Notes under the pieces: generated by a model
The model's database searches: none
Told to the model about the DNA's origin: nothing
Seen by the model: only the letters and a program-made list of their open reading frames with translations
Shown: positions 7,994 to 30,145 of the stretch, one piece after another
How the letters are laid out: the number at the start of each line of letters is the position of its first letter
Position numbering within the stretch: position 1 is the first letter of the stretch
Translations under genes and position numbers: made by a program
Source of the DNA: an archaeon
Lineage (GTDB): Archaea > Nanobdellota > Nanobdellia > Woesearchaeales > GW2011-AR9
DNA length: 34,568 bases
NCBI GenBank assembly: GCA_023259115.1
Contig: JAHFQW010000016.1
Span: 1 to 34,568, forward strand
Reading direction: 5' to 3'

Positions 7994-8155
7994 ATGTCTA
8001 GATTTGATGGATTTTTTATAAGGGTTTGGCAAGAAAATAGGGGATTTGGAAGTTGGTTTGGAATATACGTGAGGCACTAATTAATTGAACACGTAGTTTA
8101 GTTATAAAGGGTTTTGATTAACCCTATAATACTTGTCAAACCCCTCTAAGAAGGA

Positions 8156-8247
8156 TACCAACGGACAGAAATAATAATATCAATAGTTCTGTCCGTTGTA
8201 TCTACAAAAGACCTAACTATTATTATAAGAAATTAGGTCTTTTGGTA
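8156..8247. mobile_element. Two-hairpin miniature element with CCAA/TTGG ends at TA
   Basis: Two near-perfect hairpins side by side. Hairpin 1 is 8154-8170 with 8187-8202 (about 16 bp, arm CCAACGGACAGAA, 16-nt loop). Hairpin 2 is 8202-8216 with 8233-8248 (arm CTACAAAAGACCTAA, 16-nt loop). The unit starts TA-CCAA and ends TTGG-TA, so the flanking TA could be a target duplication inside the linker of the host family-E element. Only one copy is seen here, so family status is inferred from the shared architecture. Confidence 0.6.
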
Positions 8248-8256
8248 GACTTTGAA

Positions 8257-8325
8257 TATAGATAACTGTGTAGAAGATATAATATTTGACACAGTTATCT
8301 AATAAATAAACTGTGGTTTATTATA
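8257..8325. mobile_element. T1-family two-hairpin element, copy a
   Basis: Inserted at a TA in the second hairpin of the surrounding family-E element. Hairpin 1 arms are AGATAACTGTGT (8260-8271) and ACACAGTTATCT (8289-8300), a perfect 12-bp stem around a 17-nt loop ending TTTG. Hairpin 2 is shortened to AATAAAC-TGTG-GTTTATT (about 8305-8322). The element begins TAGATAA and ends TTTATTA, each next to TA. Confidence 0.7.
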
Positions 8326-8355
8326 TTGATAAATATATGGGTTATTCAAAGTCCT

Positions 8356-8556
8356 CTATAATTTTTTTAAATCCCAAATAATTAAACAAATGCTGCAGAA
8401 TGAGAAGAGGGCAATGAGATTATTTTGGATTGGCAGAGGAAGGCCAATGTGGAATAGAGCAAGAGCAGGGTTGAGGAGGGTGATGAAGAAGAGGAGAGCG
8501 AAGAGTAAGAGAAGAATCATTAAGAGGAAGAAGATTTTTCTGCGGTATTGTATCAT
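8356..8556 (-). CDS. Small membrane protein, two transmembrane helices
   Basis: 66 residues, almost entirely two hydrophobic segments (about residues 8-28 and 43-62) joined by a short Pro/Gly/Asn loop, with basic residues at the start (MIQYRRK) and end (DLKKL). That pattern suggests a helical hairpin with both ends in the cytoplasm. Function unknown. The ATG is preceded by a TATA-like TTTAAATAAT about 27 nt upstream, so it is probably a real leaderless gene. Its TAG stop coincides with the TATAG terminus of the adjacent family-E repeat, so the present C-terminus may have been set by that insertion. The opposing reading frame at 8390-8602 is a shadow rich in Arg/Lys. Confidence 0.55.
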   Translation of the reverse strand: MIQYRRKIFFLLMILLLLFALLFFITLLNPALALFHIGLPLPIQNNLIALFSFCSICLIIWDLKKL

Positions 8557-12939: not shown

Positions 12940-13033
12940 TATAGTAATGGTGAATAATTTTCGAATGTTTGTTCACCATTACTAATAAGTAAATGTGTAG
13001 GTTACTATTCGATTATTTCACACATTTACTATA
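12940..13033. mobile_element. T1-family two-hairpin element, copy b
   Basis: TA-[TAGTAATGG...TTTACTA]-TA, 94 bp. Hairpin 1 is a perfect 12-bp stem (12943-12954 with 12972-12983, core TAATGGTGAA) around the 17-nt loop 12955-12971, which ends TTTG. Hairpin 2 is an 11-bp stem (12988-12998 with 13020-13030, AGTAAATGTGT) with a 21-nt loop. It fills the gap between two convergent genes, where the hairpins could also serve as a bidirectional terminator. It has the same length and loop as copy e at 30002-30095 but compensated stem changes. Confidence 0.8.
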
Positions 13034-14013: not shown

Positions 14014-14111
14014 TATAGAGGAGTTTGAATAACTTTATAAAATTTGTCAAACTCCTCTAAGAAGAACTTTGAATAATCGTTGAAAGATATGGTTATTCAA
14101 AGTCCTCTATA
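14014..14111. mobile_element. Intact family-E two-hairpin element (reference copy)
   Basis: TA-[TAGAGG...CCTCTA]-TA, 98 bp, with terminal inverted repeats TATAGAGGAGTTTGAATAAC and the complement of GTTATTCAAAGTCCTCTATA (19 of 20 match). Hairpin 1 is a 13-bp perfect stem, 14016-14028 with 14047-14059, around an 18-nt loop ending ATTTG. After AGAAGA comes hairpin 2, an 11-bp stem, 14066-14076 with 14093-14103, around a 16-nt loop. The loop of hairpin 1 contains TTTATAAAA, which read on the minus strand is a TATA box for the adjacent flavoprotein gene. No reading frame lies inside. Confidence 0.85.
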
Positions 14112-29958: not shown

Positions 29959-30145
29959 TATAGATAACTGCGCGGTTTATAACACATTTGGCGCAGTGAT
30001 CTATAGTAATTGTGAATAATTTTCGTACATTTGTTCACAATTACTAATAAGCAAATGTGTGGATTAATATTTGAATAGTTAACACATTTGCTATAATAAG
30101 TAAACTGCGATGATTCATGTGCGACATCCTACGCAGTTTACTATA
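29959..30145. mobile_element. T1-family element, copy d, interrupted by another copy
   Basis: Outer unit TA-[TAGATAACTG...TTTACTA]-TA. Hairpin 1 (29962-29973 with 29991-30002, one mismatch) has a 17-nt loop ending ACATTTG. Hairpin 2 has arms AAACTGCG/CGCAGTTT (30102-30109 with 30132-30139). The linker between them holds a complete second copy (30002-30095). Its right end overlaps the region just before the DOHH-like gene. Confidence 0.85.
30002..30095. mobile_element. T1-family two-hairpin element, copy e, nested in copy d
   Basis: TA-[TAGTAATTG...TTTGCTA]-TA, 94 bp. Hairpin 1: TAATTGTGAA/TTCACAATTA around the 17-nt loop TAATTTTCGTACATTTG. Hairpin 2: AGCAAATGTGT/ACACATTTGCT with a 21-nt loop. 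It is the same length as copy b at 12940. Removing it together with one TA restores GATCTAATAAG, the continuous linker seen in copy c. Confidence 0.85.

Follow-up and report, generated by a model that had tools for sequence, protein, structure and literature searches.

We consider it very probable (about 90%) that the T1 elements described here are IS630-type MITEs of an archaeon, and that one of them, copy e, was inserted into the linker of another, copy d, by an IS630 transposase acting in trans. T1 is placed among IS630-type MITEs because IS630 transposons of related genomes share its ends, and because the ends of e fit an IS630 matrix. The window, i.e. the whole stretch of 34,568 nucleotides that was analysed, is contig C38 of a draft genome (G000; 1.57 Mb in 54 contigs, 96% complete), and its CysRS has its nearest relatives in woesearchaeal MAGs, which makes the host a DPANN archaeon. 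Copy d begins at most five bases from the CysRS stop codon. The first-pass annotation had read e as lying inside the linker of d in the order GATC-TA-[TAG...CTA]-TA-ATAAG, and a second reading of the letters at 29959-30145 gave the same order. The parts of the nest, with the evidence for each, and the related copies of the window are as follows.

29959 to 30145, + strand: host element d, a T1 double-hairpin MITE of the d type, from TAG at 29961 to CTA at 30143, with flanking TA at 29959-29960 and 30144-30145 (siblings L059, L066, L069, L071; ends of IS630 L118)
29961 to 30003, + strand: hairpin 1 of d, TAGATAACTGCG...GCGCAGTGATCTA (sequence; end comparison)
30002 to 30003, + strand: left copy of the TA target-site duplication (exact empty site GATCTAATAAG in L066)
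30004 to 30093, + strand: inserted element e, T1 of the e type, 90 bp, TAG...CTA (33 full-length e-type copies; fold)
30004 to 30046, + strand: hairpin 1 of e, arms TAGTAATTGTGAA and TTCACAATTACTA, apex ATAATTTTCGTACATTTG (covariation; end profile)
30050 to 30093, + strand: hairpin 2 of e, arms AGCAAATGTGT and ACACATTTGCT (covariation)
30094 to 30095, + strand: right copy of the TA target-site duplication (exact empty site in L066)
30096 to 30143, + strand: remainder of d, linker ATAAG (30096-30100) and hairpin 2, TAAACTGCG...CGCAGTTTACTA (match to contig C47)
24007 to 24124, + strand: copy c, uninterrupted (ends match IS630 L119, L093 and L121)
12940 to 13033, + strand: second e-type copy of the window, 85% identical to e

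Removal of e together with one TA from d yields GGCGCAGTGATCTAATAAGTAAACTGCG, which is found letter for letter in L066, an uninterrupted d-type sibling on another contig of the same genome (G000:C12). The same stretch differs by a single base in two copies at L059 and in L069, L071 is a further uninterrupted d-type sibling in G000, and the right half of d recurs with 100% identity over 52 bp at C47:43725-43776. Copy c, first put forward as the empty site, is indeed uninterrupted, but it is diverged and of another subtype, reading TTATCTAATAAG where d requires GATCTAATAAG, so that L066 serves the purpose better. A second empty site is provided by a coding sequence. In genome G049, an e-type copy (L166:634-727) interrupts a gene for a Bro-N domain protein: the upstream piece matches Bro-N at 25.3 bits, just below the cut-off of 25.6, while for the downstream piece the matches are annotated Bro-N proteins. 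When one TA, and one only, is kept between the flanks, the conserved RLIQSIPSPKAEPFK is restored, the two intact homologues having RIIQSIPSPKAEPFK and RLIQSIPSPKAEPFK at this position, whereas keeping neither or both TAs destroys the frame. The boundaries and the TA duplication of the first reading are thus borne out twice, once by an exact empty site within the genome and once by a coding one. Orthologous loci after CysRS in relatives offered no exact empty site for d itself: d is absent there and the next gene is different. That the nest might be a product of assembly or recombination rather than of transposition is scarcely credible, and the least probable of the readings weighed here. To be sure, the draft is rich in repeats and some of its contigs end in such elements (L187, L188, L193); against this, e is only 90 bp long and can be spanned by single reads, the TA duplication and the empty site are both exact, and TA-duplicated nests are many and occur in several genomes.

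Copies of the e type measure about 94 bp with both TAs included and have abrupt TATAG and CTATA edges amid unrelated flanks. Distinct full-length copies with sharp boundaries number 33 across many genomes, element counts resting on searches and on targeted stretches of genome. They occur in 14 of the 49 genomes of the family, our own included, and in G032, which belongs to another family; near-full-length relatives of e itself come from the 13 other family genomes and from G032, with E values down to 1e-33. The G032 copy (L043:1501-1593) is 93% identical to e, closer than copies within the family, and may reflect horizontal transfer. A search of viral contigs with two end patterns gave no match. 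T1 elements encode nothing, and e has no ORF of its own. Its fold is far more stable than that of dinucleotide shuffles (z = -7.0; about -7 for four elements of the window); a chance origin of e is excluded by this distance of 7 SD, together with its relatives in other genomes. The two-hairpin fold is present in all e-type copies. In an alignment of 19 sequences, three of them from other families and with stems quite unlike the rest, paired cells make up 92%, and both sides have changed in 14 of 24 pairs, a figure reached in none of 500 shuffles and nowhere approached by slid controls. T1 elements with very different stems are thereby shown to keep one folded plan through paired changes, and d, c and many e types, for all their different stems, have the identical linker CTAATAAG between their hairpins. 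Two variations on the plan were seen along the way. Many e-type copies (L060, L063, L067, L070, L100-L104) carry in their first loop a cassette starting with TCGAGTCACTCCGTTCGTGA and containing short hairpins, with no TA duplication apparent. In the single-hairpin derivatives L062, L065 and L081, the outer arm of hairpin 1 is joined to the loop or to the outer arm of hairpin 2, a pattern expected from deletion between repeated arms.

Covariation of this strength could be taken to mean that the hairpins are conserved as working structures, be it in RNA or in DNA (terminators, RNase sites or protein targets), mobility being secondary or past, and the position of some copies directly 3' of genes, as with d after CysRS, would suit such a role. 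Yet the arms are at the same time the terminal repeat of a transposon, so that paired changes are also expected from repeats changing together; a search of Rfam gave no match; and copies interrupt genes as well as one another. As the primary explanation we hold this improbable, while a structural role as a side effect is compatible with these elements being IS630 MITEs.

What ties T1 to IS630 is best seen in d and c. DDE_3 domains were found in 36 of 353 genomes of the order, those from the family of the window being decisive, and woesearchaeal relatives hold intact IS630 transposons of about 1.09 kb which end like d (L118) and like c (L119, L093, L121). L118 (G062:C95) codes for an intact transposase of 344 aa (NF033545, 219 bits for a cut-off of 100; DDE_3, 129.6 bits for a cut-off of 28.6) within a 1093-bp transposon at 940-2032 with ends TATAGATAACTGCG; by its DDE-domain enzyme, terminal repeats flanked by TA and length of about 1.1 kb, L118 belongs to the IS630 family. 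L119 (also in G062), L093 (G014) and L121 (from another family) have TATAGATAATTCTG or TATAGACAATTCTG as their ends, as does c. The outer arm of hairpin 1 of d is the IS630 terminal repeat, and the likeness goes past the terminal repeat: the right end of d, TATAGTAAACTGCGTAGGATGTCGCACAT, aligns with the left end of L118, TATAGATAACTGCGTAGGATACAGCACAT, the similarity continuing through CTGCGTAGGAT..GCACAT, and the right end of c, TTCTGTTAATTGGA, aligns with the left end of L119. Anchored scores against L118 are 26 for the left end of d, 32 for its right end and 35 for the left end of its sibling L071, for a shuffled maximum of 11-13; c scores 27-33 against L119, L093 and L121, for a shuffled maximum of 15-18. 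In a further nested element, T6 (L098), the right end matches the ends of L140. Boundaries, TA duplication, empty sites and dispersal in many copies were all observed directly, as were, for the d and c types, matching IS630 ends in relatives. The initial reading had called for a transposase whose ends match, be it in this genome or in relatives, and L118, L119, L093 and L121 supply it in relatives; its assignment to the IS630/Tc1-mariner class stands on these TAG-ended transposons and on the TA empty sites of L066 and G049. It had further predicted ends resembling TAGTAAA or TAGAGGA: the transposons do start with TAG, but their ends are TAGATAACTGCG (as in d) and TAGATAATTCTG (as in c).

The link of copy e to IS630 is through its end profile only, and we place it there with lower certainty than d. 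The 353 genomes of the order yielded no autonomous element ending in TAGTAATTGTGAA; matches in G131, G133 and G308, considered for this role, proved to be decayed or ordinary MITEs. A profile of IS630 ends, from which miniature elements and the clade of L118, L119, L093 and L121 were left out, was scored against a null of 328 TATAG sites from contigs of eleven relatives. The left end of e scores 1.1, a value attained by none of the 328 null sites, and the right end -5.3, above 321 of them and matched or exceeded by seven; of the 33 e-type copies, the majority reach or pass the top of the null with one end or both. In e, hairpin 2 has the right-end repeat as its outer arm, and the apex of hairpin 1, ATAATTTTCGTACATTTG, corresponds to the left subterminal region of IS630. 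The left apex of e, ATTTTCG, and the right apex, AATAATCGAACATT in relatives, lie about as far from the end as ATTTTCGG in L130 and AATAATGGAACATT in L136, L139 and L142. Profile scores and apex spacing together suggest that e belongs with IS630 too.

The search for the enzyme in the carriers is instructive about draft genomes. In the G000 draft, DDE_3 and protein searches turned up no IS630 transposase and returned weak HTH matches only, and DDE_3 searches were likewise empty in most carriers. This silence is weak evidence, because in G021, a genome with d- and e-type copies, DDE_3 also missed IS630, of which a protein search recovered at least three copies, cut off where contigs end (L209, L212, L215, L216, L217; three right-end and two left-end pieces of one IS630, with differing flanks). 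Their C-terminus is 85% identical to that of the L119 enzyme. In G010, the IS630 pieces are decayed or broken at contig ends. Multi-copy IS630 genes break these assemblies and hide transposases at contig ends, which explains why such enzymes go missing from metagenome assemblies. The sole other transposase noticed in G000, an IS481-like one (L222:1471-2325, on C15), has ends CCCGAAACTATTTCCC unrelated to T1.

Paired hairpins in many copies also bring to mind REPINs or BIMEs, palindromes moved as single-strand hairpins by a Y1 (HUH) transposase, and Y1_Tnp genes are indeed present in five carriers, such as G001, G010 and G058. They are absent, though, from G000 and nine other carriers, G020 and G021 among them, and Y1 chemistry would lead one to expect neither duplications of two bases, TA, nor ends like those of DDE transposons, which makes this account very improbable. 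With IS630 enzymes as the probable movers of d and e, the events may be pictured as follows. In a T1 element, each end is folded into a hairpin of its own, with the linker CTAATAAG in between, and would carry an IS630 terminal repeat and subterminal bases. Acting in trans, a DDE transposase of the IS630 family, presumably one whose ends were of the L130, L136 or L139 kind, most likely excised e from another site by cut-and-paste, and would then have pasted it into a TA of the linker of d, whereby TA was duplicated.

The nest of e in d is not isolated. The window contains a composite nest and an uninterrupted element of another type:

8103 to 8361, + strand: composite nest, a T4 element whose linker holds T5 (8156-8247) and whose second hairpin holds T1 copy b (8259-8321)
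14014 to 14111, + strand: T4 element, uninterrupted, TATAGAGG...CCTCTATA

Uninterrupted T4 relatives of the composite are known from L104 and L105. In the composite, T5 (TACCAA...TTGGTA) lies in the T4 linker with a duplication of GA (8154-8249), the empty site being AAGAAGGACTTTG in L104; in L066, T5 sits in a T4 linker with a TA duplication, and the empty site is in L105. Two-base duplications in these nests thus extend beyond TA. An extreme case is T2 (CAAG...CTTG, 57-121 bp; L181-L208, e.g. L184:1501-1622). A search of the whole genome G000, regardless of context, found about 20 copies, every one inside another element: 15 share one TA position in the T1 linker CTAATAAG, in hosts with five different stems, and the rest lie in T5 linkers or, with a CA duplication, in a T1 loop (L203). 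The same linker site is also used in G010 and G050; the linker is a repeated insertion site. Independent insertions are fewer than nests, since a number of composites were probably moved whole, but a single event is unlikely given five types of stem and the involvement of several genomes. Nesting in linkers may reflect neutral survival, insertions into MITEs being harmless, conversion from linker to linker, or real targeting. We can only tentatively entertain, and would not bet on, the linker being a true landing site and T2 an obligate parasite of MITEs; if so, it would be the structure of the hairpin junction, rather than sequence alone, that is targeted. Either way, elements within elements offer a natural case for asking whether a transposase can recognize a DNA hairpin as its target.

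The mechanism and the class of T1 are already known. MITEs had been described by the first-pass annotation as mostly bacterial, which is overstated, as they are on record in archaea such as Sulfolobus (SM1-SM4) and Haloquadratum (PMC10969869). Our literature search found no description of MITEs in DPANN archaea. As far as that literature goes, what is new is the host, a DPANN archaeon, together with a two-hairpin plan that covariation upholds, a linker shared between types and an element living only inside elements. DPANN archaea gain a MITE system of clear boundaries, for which empty sites and candidate parent transposons have been identified. The Sulfolobus MITEs are, like T1, archaeal, non-autonomous and multi-copy, but belong to other lineages (PMC10969869). 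The Correia or NEMIS elements of Neisseria, to which T1 had been likened, have TA termini, inverted repeats, lengths of about 107-155 bp and many copies (PMC2229807). T1 resembles them by analogy in these general properties rather than by membership; the neisserial elements are listed with terminal repeats of 24 bp (PMC2229807). Nothing points to an ancestry shared with T1. Within the order itself, the IS630 transposons of Woesearchaeales (L118, L119, L093, L121, L130, L140) share TA flanks and ends with d, c and T6, but they are autonomous, measure about 1.0-1.1 kb and, unlike T1, have ends without separate hairpin folds. The closest described pair is RUP of the pneumococcus with IS630-Spn1: RUP is non-coding, about 100 bp long, targets TA and has terminal repeats matching those of IS630, its mobilization in trans has been proposed and its insertion into other mobile elements reported (PMC2229807, PMC3049150). 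The likeness to RUP, a bacterial element, is one of general properties, and T1 differs in having two separate covarying hairpins and a fixed linker.
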